DNA of 64,000 bases from Nitrospirota bacterium (GTDB lineage: Bacteria > JACPQY01), in assembly GCA_016180645.1 (NCBI GenBank), contig JACPAV010000003.1:124001-188000 (forward strand), read 5' to 3'. This document shows, piece after piece, positions 40,244-59,473 of the stretch. Every line of letters starts with the position of its first letter. The first letter of the stretch is position 1. The position numbers and the translations under genes were made by a program. The notes beneath the pieces were generated by a model. That model saw only the letters and a program-made list of their open reading frames with translations. It was not told the origin of the DNA and searched no databases.

Positions 40244-40409
40244 AAGGCGCAGGCCAAATGCGTCCAACAGAATGCGTAGGGGAGGGTCTTCAGACCCTCC
40301 CGACAAGAGGGAGCATCTGAAGATGCTCCCCTACGAATCGGCATTCTGTCAGAGGCTCTAAAGCCTGCGGCTGCCAAGAGGGGGCAAAACCGCGATTACG
40401 TTCCCGTAG
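40225..40409. repeat. Insertion-like block: nested palindrome flanked by 19-base direct repeats
   Basis: CGCGATTACGTTTCCGTAG at 40225-40243 is repeated with one mismatch at 40391-40409. Between them lies a nested palindrome (40267-40349): outer stem ACAGAATGC/GCATTCTGT, middle stem CGTAGGGGA/TCCCCTACG, and two inner hairpins, 40281-40300 (9-base stem) and 40309-40330 (10-base stem). The left copy ends the FN3 gene; the right copy carries the stop of the radical SAM gene on the other strand. It resembles a small non-autonomous element with a long target duplication. Confidence 0.68.
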
Positions 40410-44669: not shown

Positions 44670-44704
44670 TTGACGGCGCCATGCAAGCAAGTATATGCTT
44701 GCAT
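44670..44704 (+). promoter_or_regulatory. Promoter and 24-base operator of the efflux operon
   Basis: TTGACG (44670-44675) and TATATG (44692-44697) are 16 bases apart. A perfect dyad, ATGCAAGCA-AGTATA-TGCTTGCAT (44681-44704), covers the spacer and -10. It is the likely operator of the TetR protein encoded immediately downstream, giving autoregulation of the whole operon. The ATG at 44710 is only a few bases past the expected transcript start. Confidence 0.75.
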
Positions 44705-44709
44705 GCATC

Positions 44710-45321
44710 ATGTTCAGGGGGCTGTTCGCCAAGGAGCCGGACGTCAATGCCAAGGAGAGAATCCTGAAGGCCGCGTACGATCTTTTCCTCCGCGATGGGA
44801 TTGAGACGACCCCTACCCGAAAAATCGCACAGGCTGCGAAGGTGAACGAGGTCACGTTGTTCCGGCATTTCCGCAGCAAGGACGGCCTCATCCGCGCGGT
44901 CATCGAGCGCCATGCGCCGTCCGTCGTCGCCGCCAAACTCGGGGACCTCGCGCCAACGGACGACCTCGAAGAAGATCTCTACCGGCTCACCCGCCGGATC
45001 ATGGGGTTCCATACGGAGCACGCGGAGTTCTTCAGGTTCGTTTTCGTGAACCTTTCCAGGACGAAGCATCAGGACATCTTTCGAAATATCCCGACGCAAT
45101 TCCTCGCGCATCAGAAGAAGTTTTTCGGCTCTCTCTGCCGCCGCCGGGGACTGGATTGCACGGCCGTCTGCATGGAGTACGTCGCCCCCATCGTCTTGCG
45201 ATCGCTTCGACAGGTCTTCCTCGGAGATCCGTACCCCTTCCCGGGGGACGAGAAATTCGCCCGCACGCATGCTCGGATCTTCGCGGGGGCGCTGGGGGGC
45301 GAAAGCCGGAGTCGCAAATGA
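44710..45321 (+). CDS. TetR-family repressor of the efflux operon
   Basis: The 203-residue protein has a classical TetR helix-turn-helix: AKERILKAAYDLFLRDGIETTPTRKIAQAAKVNEVTLFRHFRSKDGLIRAVIE at residues 14-65. The C-terminal helical domain would bind a pump substrate. I chose the ATG at 44710 rather than 44695, because the earlier one lies inside the -10. There is no ribosome-binding site, so translation may be nearly leaderless. Its stop overlaps the TolC start as ATGA, tying repressor and pump expression together. Confidence 0.9.
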   Translation: MFRGLFAKEPDVNAKERILKAAYDLFLRDGIETTPTRKIAQAAKVNEVTLFRHFRSKDGLIRAVIERHAPSVVAAKLGDLAPTDDLEEDLYRLTRRIMGFHTEHAEFFRFVFVNLSRTKHQDIFRNIPTQFLAHQKKFFGSLCRRRGLDCTAVCMEYVAPIVLRSLRQVFLGDPYPFPGDEKFARTHARIFAGALGGESRSRK

Positions 45322-46712
45322 CTCGCACATTCGAATGCCCGATACTATCGAGGCTAAGCCTCGATAGCGGCTATCGAGGCTTAGCCTCGATAGTGGTAGC
45401 CCTCATGTTGGGGGGCGTGGCTCAGCCGGTCAGCTCTGCCGCCGACGGCTCTCTCACCCTCGGCCAGGCCCTCGAATACGCGCGGAAGCACAGTCCGCAG
45501 CTCCGGGGCGCGGAGGCGGCCGTCGACGCGGCCCACGGCCAGCAGTGGGAAACGCTCGGCGAGTTCCTGCCCCAGATGCACTGGAACATGCAGTTCACCC
45601 GGAACAGCAAGGCGCCCCTCGGTTCGCTCGCCGGCGGAGGCGGGAGCGGCATCCGCCCCTCTTTCACGTCTCAGGAGTTCTATTCCGACAGTCTGGCCAT
45701 TTCCCAGAAAGTCTTCACCTGGAAGATGGCGCCCGCTCTTCGGGCCTCGCAGGCCAATGTGCGCCGAACGGTCGAGGATCGTATGGCCGCCGAAAACGAT
45801 CTCACGCATGATGCCACCACCGCGTTCTACGGCCTTCTCTATGCGCGTCAGACGGTCGTCATCGCCGAGCGCGCGGAGAGCGTCGCCCGGACCACCCATG
45901 AGACGAGCGAGAAGCTCTACAAGGAGGGAAAAGCCTCCAGCTTTGACGTGTCCCGCGCGAAAGTCCGATGGGTCAACAGCCGGACGGATGTCATTCGCGC
46001 GAGAAACGGACTTCGATTGGCCAGGGAGCGACTCGCCGTCCTGCTCGGATGGAACGACGCCGGCGCGCTCGAAATTCAGGGGTCGCTGGAACGACCGCCG
46101 GCCGCCATCGACCTTGCCGGCTCCTTGGACCGCGCCGAGAAGGACAGACCTGAGCTGGTCTCCATCCGAGCCCAGCAGACGCTTCTTCGCAGCAACGTGG
46201 AAGTTGCCCGGTCATTCCTGATCCCGAGCGTGTCGGCGGGTTTCAGCTACCAGTTCGAAGACCCGTCGCTCACTTCCAGCCCGGACTACAAGGCATGGGC
46301 CGCCACGGCCACGCTCGCGGTCCCGCTCTTCGACGGCCTCACATCGTACGGCCGTCTCTCCGCCGCGCGGGCCCAAGTGCGGAGGTCGCAGGCCGCCGAG
46401 CAGCAGATCCGCGAGGCGATCGATCTTGAGGTTCGCCAGGCTGTTCTCTCGCTTGGCGAGGCCGGCGAGCGCATCGAGGCCCAGCGGGAAAACGTCTCCA
46501 CCGCGAAGGAGAACCTGAGGATCGCTCAGGAGCGATTTCGTCTGGGCCTGCTCTCGCTCCTGGATCTCAAGGACGCCGAACTGACATTAACGCAGGCGGA
46601 AACGGCGCATGCAGAAGCCCTGTTCCACTATCAACTTGCCGCGACCGATCTGGAACATGCGATGGGCGGGCCGATCGAACCGGGCCGCGAGTCCACCCCG
46701 AAAGGAGACTGA
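45318..46712 (+). CDS. TolC-family outer-membrane efflux protein 1
   Basis: The 464-residue protein has the two-fold TolC repeat: SLTLGQALEYARKHSPQLRGAEAAVDAA at the N-terminus and PELVSIRAQQTLLRSNVEVARS in the second half, ending LLDLKDAELTLTQAETAHAEALFHYQLAATDLEHAMG. It forms the exit duct for the pump. The ATG at 45318 overlaps the TetR stop. The signal peptide is unusual: residues 9-25 (ILSRLSLDSGYRGLASIV) are encoded by a 49-base twin palindrome (45345-45393) also found at 59425, so the repeat makes part of the export signal. Confidence 0.92.
   Translation: MTRTFECPILSRLSLDSGYRGLASIVVALMLGGVAQPVSSAADGSLTLGQALEYARKHSPQLRGAEAAVDAAHGQQWETLGEFLPQMHWNMQFTRNSKAPLGSLAGGGGSGIRPSFTSQEFYSDSLAISQKVFTWKMAPALRASQANVRRTVEDRMAAENDLTHDATTAFYGLLYARQTVVIAERAESVARTTHETSEKLYKEGKASSFDVSRAKVRWVNSRTDVIRARNGLRLARERLAVLLGWNDAGALEIQGSLERPPAAIDLAGSLDRAEKDRPELVSIRAQQTLLRSNVEVARSFLIPSVSAGFSYQFEDPSLTSSPDYKAWAATATLAVPLFDGLTSYGRLSAARAQVRRSQAAEQQIREAIDLEVRQAVLSLGEAGERIEAQRENVSTAKENLRIAQERFRLGLLSLLDLKDAELTLTQAETAHAEALFHYQLAATDLEHAMGGPIEPGRESTPKGD
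45345..45393. repeat. 49-base twin palindrome, copy 1, inside a TolC signal peptide
   Basis: Two perfect 23-base palindromes (CTATCGAGGCT-A-AGCCTCGATAG at 45345-45367 and the same with T in the centre at 45371-45393) are joined by CGG. The halves are reverse complements of each other. The element lies in the first 25 codons of the TolC gene. Copy 2 with the same geometry is at 59425-59473. Confidence 0.9.
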
Positions 46713-46716
46713 TGTT

Positions 46717-47643
46717 GTGAAACCGGGAAAGATTGTGGCCATCCTCGTTGCCGCGGGAATCCTCGGCCTCGCCGGGTACCGCATTGTCGGACAGATCCGG
46801 AAGGGCAAAGCGCCCGCGGCGGACATGGCAGGGAAGTCCAAGGCCGTGCCCATCGCCGTCGCCACCGTGCAGAGGGTGGACATGGAGTCCATCCTCGAAC
46901 TCACGGGCGACGTCCGGGGCCTGAACGAAGCACGCGTGTTTCCCAAGGTGCCGGGGAAGCTGATGCGCCGGGTGAAAGACGTGGGGGATACCGTACGGAA
47001 AGGCGAGACCCTAGTCATGGTGGACCGGGACGAGCCCGCGCTCGAATTCGCTCCGGGAGAAGTCACCTCTCCACTCGATGGAGTCATCACACGCTATTTC
47101 GTCGACCGGGGTGAGCTGGTCTCGCCCGCCACCCCGATTGCCGAGGTCGCGGAGATCTCGCCCGTGAAGGTGCTTGTTCGAGTGGGGGAGCGTGAACTCC
47201 CCCGCGTTCGCATGGGGCAGTCGGCCCGGTTCCGGGTGGACGCCTATCCCGGCCAGATCTTTCGAGGGACGGTGGCGCAGATTTCCGAGGCGCTGGGACT
47301 GGGCTCGCGCGCATCCGACGTGGAGATCCATCTCATGAACCCGGACAAGAAACTGAAGCCGGGGATGTTCGCGCGGGTGGAGCTGATCCTCGACCGCCAT
47401 CCACACGCCCTGGCCGTTCCCGAGGAATCCCTGCTGGAAGTAGATGGCGAGAGTTTTGTGTACACCGTGCCCGACGGAATGGCCCGGAGGACCAGGGTGG
47501 AAATCGGTCTGCGTCAGTCGGGCCGGGTGGAAATCCTGAAGGGGCTCAGTGGGACGGAAAAAGTCGTCACCATCGGCTGGCAGAATCTGGCGGACGGCTC
47601 GGTGGTGGATGTGGTCGAAGAAGCGGAGGAGAATCAGCCTTGA
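46717..47643 (+). CDS. RND efflux periplasmic adaptor (membrane fusion protein)
   Basis: The 308-residue protein has an N-terminal membrane anchor (KIVAILVAAGILGLAGYRIVG), then a lipoyl-like domain split by only a short link (KLMRRVKDVGDTVRKGETLVMVDRDEPALEF to VTSPLDGVITRYFVDRGELVSPATPIAEVA), a beta-barrel domain and a C-terminal membrane-proximal domain. The usual alpha-helical hairpin that reaches TolC is essentially missing. The GTG at 46717 has GGAG nine bases upstream; an ATG at 46712 is out of frame. Its stop overlaps the RND start as TTGA. It must connect one or both RND pumps of the operon to a TolC. Confidence 0.9.
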   Translation: MKPGKIVAILVAAGILGLAGYRIVGQIRKGKAPAADMAGKSKAVPIAVATVQRVDMESILELTGDVRGLNEARVFPKVPGKLMRRVKDVGDTVRKGETLVMVDRDEPALEFAPGEVTSPLDGVITRYFVDRGELVSPATPIAEVAEISPVKVLVRVGERELPRVRMGQSARFRVDAYPGQIFRGTVAQISEALGLGSRASDVEIHLMNPDKKLKPGMFARVELILDRHPHALAVPEESLLEVDGESFVYTVPDGMARRTRVEIGLRQSGRVEILKGLSGTEKVVTIGWQNLADGSVVDVVEEAEENQP

Positions 47644-50600
47644 CTCTCCCGGATTTTGCCGTCAATCGTCCGGTGGCCGTCGCCATGCTTTATGTGGGAC
47701 TGCTGGTCCTGTCGGTTGTCTCCTTCCTGCGGATGAGGATCGAACTCATGCCGGACATCACGTTCCCCACGCTCGGCCTCATCACCAGCTACCCTGGCGC
47801 AAGCGCAGAGGAGGTCGAGCAGAAGATCACCCGTCTGGTCGAATCCCAGGTCTCCATCGTGCGAGGCATGAAAGAGATCCAGTCCATTTCAAAAGAAGGG
47901 ATATCGACGGTCCGCCTGAAATTCGACTGGGGGACCAACCTCGACGACGCCGCCAACGACGTGCGCGACCGGCTCGGCATTCTCAAGAACTTCCTTCCCG
48001 AAGGCGTGGACGAGCCGACGATCTTCCGGTTCGATCTGAAGGATCTTCCGGTTCTCATGATCGGCGCGCAGGCCGAGGAATCCTACCCGCGGCTGTTCCA
48101 CATCCTGGACTCGGAAGTGTCCGACATGGTGAAACGCGTGCCGGGCGTGGGCAACGTCTTCGTCCGCGGCGGACTCGTTCGGCAGGTGAACGTGAATGTG
48201 GACAGGCAGCGGCTGGAAGCCCACCGGCTCACGCTCCTCGATCTCGCGCGCTCACTTCAGGCCAACAACATCACCCTCCCGGCAGGCGACATCTCCGTCG
48301 GACGCACCAACTACCTGCTCCGGGTGCCGGGCGAATTCGAATCGCTCGATCAAATCGCGCGGATTCCCGTCGGCTACGCTCAGGGTCGGACTTTGACTCT
48401 GGACGACGTGGCCGCCGTGGAAGACGGCCATTTCGACGAAAAAGAACGGGTGGAGATCAAGGGCCGTACAGGCGCGATTTTCTTCATCCAGAAGAGATCC
48501 GAGGCCAACACCGTTGAGGTGGCCGCCGCCGTGAAGGCCAAACTTCCGGAGATTCAGGCTCGATTGCCGCGGGACGTGAAGCTCCAAGTACTCATCGACA
48601 ATTCGGTGAACGTCAAACGCAGCATCTACAACCTGCGCGAAGTGCTCTGGGTGGCGGTCGTGCTGATCGTCCTCGTCGTCCTGCTCTTTCTCCGGCAATG
48701 GCGGCCCGCCTTGATTGTGTGCACCTCGATCCCCGTTTCGCTCATCGACAGTTTCATGATCCAGTATTTCCTCGGCTACAGCATCAATTCGATCTCGCTC
48801 CTTGCGCTCACGATCGCGGTGGGTCTCGTGGTGGACGATGCCATCGTCGTGATGGAAAATCAGATCCGCCACCAGGATGAACTGAAGGAGCCGCCCCGAA
48901 TCGCGGCCGTCAACGCGGCCAAGGAGGTCTCCCTCGCGATCGTGGCCTCCACGTTCACGTCGTGCATCGTATTTCTCCCGGTCGTCTTCGTCGGCGGCGT
49001 GGCCGGCGTGCTGTTCAAATCCCTCGCCCTGGTCATCTGCGTCACCCTCCTCCTCTCGCTGTTCGACGCGCTGACGCTCAACCCCATGCTCGGCGCCCTG
49101 CTGTTGAAAGGGGCCAAGCCGTCCACGAACGGGTTCTACGCCCGAACGGAACGCTGGTTTGTCGCTTTGGGCCAATCCTATCGATCCGCCATCGGGTGGG
49201 CGCTGGACCATCGCAAAACCGTGCTCGCGTCGGCCACGGTGCTGTTCTTCGGCAGCGCCGGGCTGGTCCGTTTTGTCGGCACCGAGTTCTTCCCCGAGTC
49301 CGATCAGGGCCAGCTACAAGCGGAATTTCAGCTCCCCGTCGGAACGCGCGTGGAAGCAACGCATGACGCGATGAACCAGTTTGAACAGGTCTACAACACT
49401 GTGGTGAAGCCCGAGTGGTCGCAGAACTACTTCTGGCGGGACGGACTCAACCCGAGGATGGGATTCGGCGGATTCATGGGCATGCGGGAGGATTCGAACA
49501 TCGGTCGATTCCAGGCCGTCCTGGTGGAGAAATCGGAACGTCCCGTCGGCATGAAAGAGATCAACCAGAAGCTTCGGGAGGCCAGCGCGAGAATTCCCGG
49601 TCTCACCCGCGTCAATTTCTTCGCAGGGGATTTCATGAGCCGGATGCTGCTCGGGCGGGAGAAACCCCTGGCGGTGGACGTGTTCGGTTACGACCTCGGA
49701 AGGATGCACGACGTGGCGCGGAAGGTTGAATCCGCCCTGAAGACCACTCCAGGGATAGCCGATGCGAGCATTTCGCTCGATCTAAGGCGCCCGGAATATC
49801 ACGTGGTGGTCGATCGCGCGAAGGCGGCCGCCCTCGGGATTCCCGTGAAGGACGTGGCCGATACGTTCAAGCTCGGCTTCTCCCAATCCCGCGCGAGCAT
49901 CTACCGGGAGTTGGGCGAGGAGTACGACATCGTCATCCGGATGCGGGAGGAGGATCGACGCGACGAGCCGGACCTGACGGGACTGTTCGTGCGCTCGCCG
50001 GGCGGCGATCTCATCCGTCTCTCCAACCTCGCGCAATTCGAGAAGACCACGGGCCCGATCGAGATCGAACGGCAGGATCAGCAGCGGGTTATCCACGTCG
50101 AAGCCAACATCCAGGGAAGTTCCATCGGCCAGCTCGCCGCCAAGGTTCAAGAGAAGCTCGACCGCATCCCGCTGCCGCCGGGCGTGGTGGTGGCCATCGG
50201 CGGTTCGGTGAAAGAGCAGAAGGAATCCTTCCGCCTTCTGGGTCTGGCCCTCATCCTCGGCGTGCTCCTCACGTTCATGGTCATGGCGGCCCAATTCGAG
50301 TCCCTCCGGGCGCCGTTCGTGATCATGTTCTCCGTGCCCTTTGGTTTCGTCGGGGCCGTCTGGATGTTTCTCCTGACAGGCTTCCACCTGAACGTCTCAA
50401 CCTTCATCGGGCTGATCATGATGGTGGGTCTGGTCGTGAAGAACGCCATCGTGTATCTGGACTACGCCATGAAGAAGGAACGCGAGGGCCTCCCTCTCCG
50501 GGAGGCGTTGATCGAGGCGGGCCGCGTGCGGCTCCGGCCGATCCTGATGACCGCATGCGCGATGATTTTCGGCCTGCTCCCCATGGCGCTGTCCACCCGC

Positions 50601-50741
50601 GAGGGATCCGAAACATGGCAGCCGCTCTCGCTCACCGTCATCGGCGGGCTGATCGTGTCCACCGCGGTGACCCTGATCCTGATTCCGACGCTCTATTACT
50701 CGATTTCCGGGCGGAAACGGAGATCGGCGCCCACCGCATGA
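47640..50741 (+). CDS. RND efflux transporter 1 (AcrB type)
   Basis: The 1033-residue inner-membrane pump has twelve predicted helices and the two large periplasmic loops of the HAE family. Proton-relay residues are kept: VGLVVDDAIVVMEN (paired Asp) in TM4 and MVGLVVKNAIVYLDY (Lys) in TM10. Other hallmarks are FFRMRIELMPDITFPTL-type entry and SYPGASAEEVEQ in the first loop. The start is TTG at 47640, overlapping the adaptor stop as TTGA. Its stop overlaps the TolC-2 start (ATGA). Substrates cannot be predicted. Confidence 0.94.
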   Translation: MTLPDFAVNRPVAVAMLYVGLLVLSVVSFLRMRIELMPDITFPTLGLITSYPGASAEEVEQKITRLVESQVSIVRGMKEIQSISKEGISTVRLKFDWGTNLDDAANDVRDRLGILKNFLPEGVDEPTIFRFDLKDLPVLMIGAQAEESYPRLFHILDSEVSDMVKRVPGVGNVFVRGGLVRQVNVNVDRQRLEAHRLTLLDLARSLQANNITLPAGDISVGRTNYLLRVPGEFESLDQIARIPVGYAQGRTLTLDDVAAVEDGHFDEKERVEIKGRTGAIFFIQKRSEANTVEVAAAVKAKLPEIQARLPRDVKLQVLIDNSVNVKRSIYNLREVLWVAVVLIVLVVLLFLRQWRPALIVCTSIPVSLIDSFMIQYFLGYSINSISLLALTIAVGLVVDDAIVVMENQIRHQDELKEPPRIAAVNAAKEVSLAIVASTFTSCIVFLPVVFVGGVAGVLFKSLALVICVTLLLSLFDALTLNPMLGALLLKGAKPSTNGFYARTERWFVALGQSYRSAIGWALDHRKTVLASATVLFFGSAGLVRFVGTEFFPESDQGQLQAEFQLPVGTRVEATHDAMNQFEQVYNTVVKPEWSQNYFWRDGLNPRMGFGGFMGMREDSNIGRFQAVLVEKSERPVGMKEINQKLREASARIPGLTRVNFFAGDFMSRMLLGREKPLAVDVFGYDLGRMHDVARKVESALKTTPGIADASISLDLRRPEYHVVVDRAKAAALGIPVKDVADTFKLGFSQSRASIYRELGEEYDIVIRMREEDRRDEPDLTGLFVRSPGGDLIRLSNLAQFEKTTGPIEIERQDQQRVIHVEANIQGSSIGQLAAKVQEKLDRIPLPPGVVVAIGGSVKEQKESFRLLGLALILGVLLTFMVMAAQFESLRAPFVIMFSVPFGFVGAVWMFLLTGFHLNVSTFIGLIMMVGLVVKNAIVYLDYAMKKEREGLPLREALIEAGRVRLRPILMTACAMIFGLLPMALSTREGSETWQPLSLTVIGGLIVSTAVTLILIPTLYYSISGRKRRSAPTA

Positions 50742-59424: not shown

Positions 59425-59473
59425 CTATAGAGGCTAAGCCTCTATAGCGGCTATCGAGGCTTGGCCTCCATAG
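59425..59473. repeat. 49-base twin palindrome, copy 2
   Basis: CTATAGAGGCT-A-AGCCTCTATAG (59425-59447), then CGG, then an imperfect CTATCGAGGCTTGGCCTCCATAG (59451-59473). Same size and layout as the copy inside the TolC signal peptide at 45345, with compensating changes keeping the first stem perfect. It lies between the divergent AhpD-like and EamA genes. Confidence 0.88.

Follow-up and report, generated by a model that had tools for sequence, protein, structure and literature searches.

Can mobile palindromes supply a working targeting signal? This testable question is raised by a 64,000-nucleotide stretch of a Nitrospirota bacterium genome (contig JACPAV010000003.1, positions 124,001 to 188,000; the window), in which a tolC gene of the OEP family carries a 49 bp twin hairpin in the codons of its predicted export signal. 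We consider it probable that this element is a dispersed, non-autonomous palindromic repeat that inserted behind the stop codon of the upstream TetR-family regulator gene and was kept by its open frame. The census of repeat places was built on BLAST and pattern searches of the genome under study (G000; 4.7 Mb, assembled in 65 contigs), with the reversed sequence as the chance control for the genome and an expected count as that for the window. Signal strength was judged by mean core hydropathy and net charge.

A twin hairpin at the start of tolC

The features of the window, all on the plus strand, are given below.

45345–45367, plus strand: first 23 bp hairpin of the twin, loop TAA (sequence and repeat searches)
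45368–45370, plus strand: spacer CGG, centre of the larger inverted repeat (sequence and RNA fold)
45371–45393, plus strand: second 23 bp hairpin, reverse complement of the first, loop TTA (sequence and repeat searches)
45318–46712, plus strand: tolC/OEP gene, 464 aa, intact, host of the repeat (open reading frame, ORF; PF02321, E = 3.7e-59)
45381–45422, plus strand: codons 22–35 of tolC, LASIVVALMLGGVA, hydrophobic core in the predicted signal, with the repeat encoding its first four residues (hydropathy)
45308–45311, plus strand: GGAG, Shine-Dalgarno-like, 6 nt before the ATG at 45318 (read from the sequence)
44695–45321, plus strand: TetR-family regulator gene, its stop overlapping the tolC start as ATGA (ORF; PF00440, E = 8.5e-14)
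59425–59473, plus strand: other twin copy in the window, intergenic, of the same build, 92% identical to 45345–45393
46609–47643, plus strand: ORF of a putative membrane-fusion subunit, between tolC and the RND gene (assigned by sequence appearance)
47640–50741, plus strand: RND pump gene downstream of tolC (ORF; assigned by sequence appearance)

The element at 45345–45393 consists of CTATCGAGGCTAAGCCTCGATAG, the spacer CGG and CTATCGAGGCTTAGCCTCGATAG. Each 23-mer is the reverse complement of the other and itself forms a perfect inverted repeat about one central base; the entire 49 bp element is also an inverted repeat centred on CGG. As RNA, this region is predicted to fold into a single hairpin of 25 pairs with CGG as the loop (z −6.5). 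With up to one mismatch allowed, the 13 bp core has four occurrences in the window, where 0.04 are expected. The initial annotation had described a 49-base element of two perfect palindromes in tolC and an intergenic element of the same size and design at 59425; both are confirmed, and the repeat core is far above chance. It had placed the tolC element in codons 9–25; the element does lie inside the start of the gene, and its actual extent is codons 10–25 plus the first base of codon 26.

The ATG at 45318 is a well-supported start because it is preceded by GGAG, because it overlaps the TetR stop codon and because the later starts give no credible signal: the GTG at codon 26 and the ATG at codon 30 lack a Shine-Dalgarno sequence and also lack either a charged n-region or a hydrophobic core. 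From this start, the residues encoded by the repeat are Leu10–Ile25 (LSRLSLDSGYRGLASI), and the N-terminus reads MTRTFECPI-LSRLSLDSGYRGLASI-VVALMLGGVAQPVSSAADG. The repeat thus adds 16–17 residues to the n-region and reaches into the hydrophobic core (LASIVVALML), which has a mean hydropathy of 2.90 and is preceded by a net charge of +1. If 16 or 17 codons are removed in silico, the sequence becomes MTRTFECP(I)VVALMLGGVAQPVSSAADG, with a hydropathy of 2.76 or 2.49 and a net charge of 0, and by these measures the N-terminus would still look like a signal. There are 45 residues before the first conserved motif (LTL), compared with about 21–36 in homologues with a clear start; the repeat therefore looks added onto an ordinary TolC signal. 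The proposal that the repeat supplies residues of an export signal accordingly stands for the in-frame n-region and early core residues of a signal-like N-terminus, but not for dependence of the signal on them, the element-free version being still signal-like (2.5–2.8 compared with 2.9). The label of an essential-type duct protein is weak, as G000 has other OEP-family matches.

A dispersed repeat family

The repeat had been called mobile-looking, and the genome-wide search bears this out. The 13 bp core occurs 20 times in G000 and the 23-mer 37 times at up to three mismatches, compared with none for either in the control. These matches fall in about 33 places, the majority of them intergenic, and comprise twins with a spacer of 3–4 nt, wider twins with spacers of about 13–16 nt (loci L022, L029 and L108) and solo hairpins. 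Gene 3′ ends are preferred: 15 of the 33 places overlap one or follow it within 31 nt, compared with 4.8% of random 49 bp stretches and 24% of random, mostly non-coding ones. At L029, L108 and L084 the repeat overlaps the last part of the preceding reading frame, whose stop codon it appears, from the sequence, to supply. One hairpin copy, L084 (G000:C31:9728–9750), lies where two converging ORFs end and may provide the stop codons of both. A longer element resembling a miniature inverted-repeat transposable element (MITE), with the twin at its centre, is present in up to five places (L016, L018, L019, L020 and L025). The fuller of these MITE-like copies have inverted ends resembling TTACTGAATTTYCC, and no target duplication was recognised for any of them. 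Compensatory changes in the hairpin, sought as a sign of selection, were found in seven cells compared with 4.8 expected by shuffling, which is not significant.

Across 386 genomes (G000 and 385 others), an exact match occurs in only two, G000 itself and one further genome of the same family (G001), where it has a single place. This copy lies within 2.9 kb that is 99.9% identical to contig C16 of G000, which rules it out as an independent insertion. The two loci (L083 on G001:C68 and L012 on G000:C16) come from genomes of different genera whose other compared proteins are 45–57% identical, and the shared stretch reflects either a recent transfer or a misplaced contig. The viral contigs and plasmids searched contain no copy of the repeat.

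Copies in a lipoprotein and in HemC

Two further copies are read in frame. The first is a solo hairpin (G000:C29; L106, 2078–2100, minus strand) inside the signal of the ORF of a putative 619 aa lipoprotein. Counted from its ATGA start (the ORF list starts five codons earlier), this protein begins MTDTGSH-YRGLASIV-GLLLACACTSEP, with GLLLACAC following the repeat peptide, and the repeat is in the same frame as in TolC. Homologues in G001 (45% identity) and in a second comparison genome, G015 (36%), have the same upstream hydrolase gene and the same ATGA junction, and their signals, MSRKSVGRGAAILLAAALGPAMVSC and MKAQRRNLKKSLLPLLLVLFASC, are ordinary and free of the repeat. Their homology to the listed ORF sets in at its residue 22, directly after the repeat. 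No potential start codon (ATG, GTG or TTG) separates the repeat from the lipobox cysteine; the repeat must therefore be translated if the lipoprotein signal is real. With it, the core hydropathy is 2.8 and one arginine, the sole source of positive charge, precedes the core; without it, these values fall to 1.81 and a net charge of −1. On these measures the repeat appears to be needed for the lipoprotein signal and to be a tolerated lengthening in TolC. The lipoprotein is thus a stronger case than TolC for the building of coding sequence by repeats, which the initial annotation had envisaged for the latter.

The second is a twin copy that encodes residues 299–316 of HemC (porphobilinogen deaminase), in the C-terminal tail beyond the conserved domains. 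Homology with HemC of G001 stops at residue 299, where the repeat begins; in G001 the protein ends in a short tail of another sequence. Two of the three coding copies thus have element-free homologues. Of the three frames in which the twin can be read on the coding strand, a single one is free of stops (LSRLSLDSGYRGLASI), and this is the frame in use. All three coding copies share it, and all three lie at tight or overlapping operon junctions near a stop codon, the distance from the upstream stop to the copy being 23 nt for TolC and 16 nt for the lipoprotein. Other apparent in-frame copies were set aside: that of L010 is in a minus frame, antisense to a likely gene, and in L013, L022 and L024 the likely starts are downstream of the repeat or at its end.

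Origin of the coding copies

A simple sequence of events could account for these fusions. A non-autonomous palindromic repeat would insert directly behind the TetR stop codon; as tolC begins on that stop, the copy would land in codons 10–26, in the stretch coding for the export signal. As the stop-free frame is the one in use, tolC would stay open and its signal would gain 16–17 residues, two arginines and four core residues. The same filter would account for both the signal of the lipoprotein and the tail of HemC, with insertion near a gene 3′ end in a tight operon and survival only with an open frame. If the following gene begins on that stop and its product is exported, the signal is where the copy would land. 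The sequences show the repeat family, its positions and frames, the order of the genes and, for two of the three cases, homologues free of the element; we infer the export of the proteins, insertion driven by a transposase and the identity of that enzyme. By estimate, about 0.4 of the roughly 33 places would be expected in signal-coding DNA by chance, and the cases are too few for an enrichment test beyond the 3′-end bias.

Several observations weigh against this origin. Neither a target-site duplication nor an empty site of known sequence was found, and no transposase adjoins any of the copies examined. No close tolC orthologue without the repeat was found (the best match is 33% over 98 genomes, with one match of 26% in genome contigs), which is why we infer, rather than observe, the addition to TolC. 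The lipoprotein homologues, at 45% and 36% identity, are diverged; they show that this position lacks the repeat but do not reveal the precise event.

As to the agent, it is possible, although we would not favour it, that the family belongs to the repetitive extragenic palindromes (REPs) and their hairpin-forming doublets (REPINs), mobilised by a REP-associated tyrosine transposase (RAYT) among the tyrosine (Y1) transposases of G000. The inverted twins accompanied by solos are laid out as in REPINs, and two of the seven Y1_Tnp matches in G000 are flanked by other twin-hairpin families. However, none of the seven loci has the present family nearby, a count that is not final in an assembly of 65 contigs, and the flanks of the repeat lack a conserved GTAG or CGTC tag.

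A bolder version of the insertion origin seems doubtful to us: the 23 bp mobile hairpin, whose stop-free YRGLASIV frame would be a prefabricated signal start of arginine plus hydrophobic residues, would repeatedly rebuild the signal of the next gene behind stops in overlapping operons, and in the lipoprotein it would have replaced the ancestral n-region, so that export would now depend on it.

We regard it as unlikely, rather more so than the preceding version, that the repeat is an untranslated or regulatory RNA element, with tolC starting at codon 26 or 30 and the 25 bp hairpin acting on mRNA stability or on the coupling of TetR and tolC. The very strong predicted RNA hairpin and the mainly intergenic location of the family would suit such a role, and in other species REPs at ORF 5′ ends have often been judged non-codogenic (PMC3733652). 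Yet the later tolC starts would leave a gene without a Shine-Dalgarno sequence and a TolC without a credible signal, the lipoprotein has no start codon with which to bypass the repeat, and Rfam yields no match for it. Least likely of all is that the repeat was selected as a ready-made signal module (an arginine followed by GLASIV) and recruited, not merely tolerated, in both proteins: two independent exported-type proteins do have the same repeat peptide at the boundary of the n- and h-regions, and the lipoprotein loses core hydropathy and its arginine without it, but there are only two cases, 3′-end insertion in overlapping operons already puts copies at signals, and the TolC signal would outlast removal of the repeat.

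We thus retain insertion behind a stop codon, followed by survival in an open frame. Repeats within genes are usually regarded as damage that is tolerated; in the present genome, one repeat peptide occupies the same functional position in two unrelated proteins of exported type, one of which has element-free homologues in two other genomes. The proposed origin also offers a concrete rule on the sites of such fusions, namely overlapping operon junctions, behind the stop codon.

Other hairpin families are present in G000. Copies of a second twin-hairpin family, GGGAGCATCTTYAGATGCTCCC, are arrayed around a Y1 transposase gene (L088; G000:C5:33000–37500), and one lies in the window at 40309–40330; this family gives 151 forward and 144 reverse matches at up to two mismatches, compared with none in the control. 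GTAG adjoins its copy in L107, as in tagged REPs. A third family (CGCAGGCTTTAGCCTGCG and CGCGGGCTGAAGCCCGCG) flanks a further Y1_Tnp gene (L089; G000:C5:104000–108000) on both sides.

Comparison with known repeat systems

REPs and REPINs tagged with GTAG or CGTC are palindromes of 20–40 bp, solo or in inverse pairs, that are found near gene 3′ ends, often provide TAG stops and in part lie within ORFs (PMC3733652, PMC3116915). The present palindrome, at 23 bp and with 37 matches, fits the criterion of a multicopy repeat of 20–40 bp, and its pairs of inverted hairpins, with spacers of 3–4 nt or about 13–16 nt, resemble REPINs. However, the six-base flanks of 48 hairpins have no shared tag, CGTC being confined to the arm that the longer, MITE-like copies have; the places number about 33 instead of hundreds; the hairpin is perfect to its ends; and a cognate RAYT flanked by the same repeat is absent from the seven Y1_Tnp loci of the 65-contig assembly, which is not a final count. 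We therefore do not file the family as REP, since it lacks both the REP tags and an adjacent RAYT.

The double-hairpin elements of mitochondrial genomes likewise consist of two hairpins with a short spacer and are dispersed. They are organellar, unlike the present family, and there is no evidence of a shared origin.

The copies read in frame in TolC, the lipoprotein and HemC recall the Rickettsia palindromic elements (RPEs), which are palindromic repeats in frame within protein genes (PMC10969869, PMC2229807). RPEs are about 150 bp long and many lie within genes of conserved proteins, whereas the present repeat, of 23 or 49 bp, is mostly intergenic and at gene ends. The RU-2/YPAL repeat of Yersinia is a 168 bp MITE in one small putative protein, YPO1552, and there too homologues have unrelated signals (PMC2759123); the present hairpin, much shorter, is found in an OEP efflux protein and in a 619 aa lipoprotein of conserved gene order. 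With intragenic REPs, Rickettsia RPEs and Yersinia RU-2 as precedents, the repeat in these protein starts is a neat new example of a rare, already described route by which mobile DNA adds pieces to proteins.
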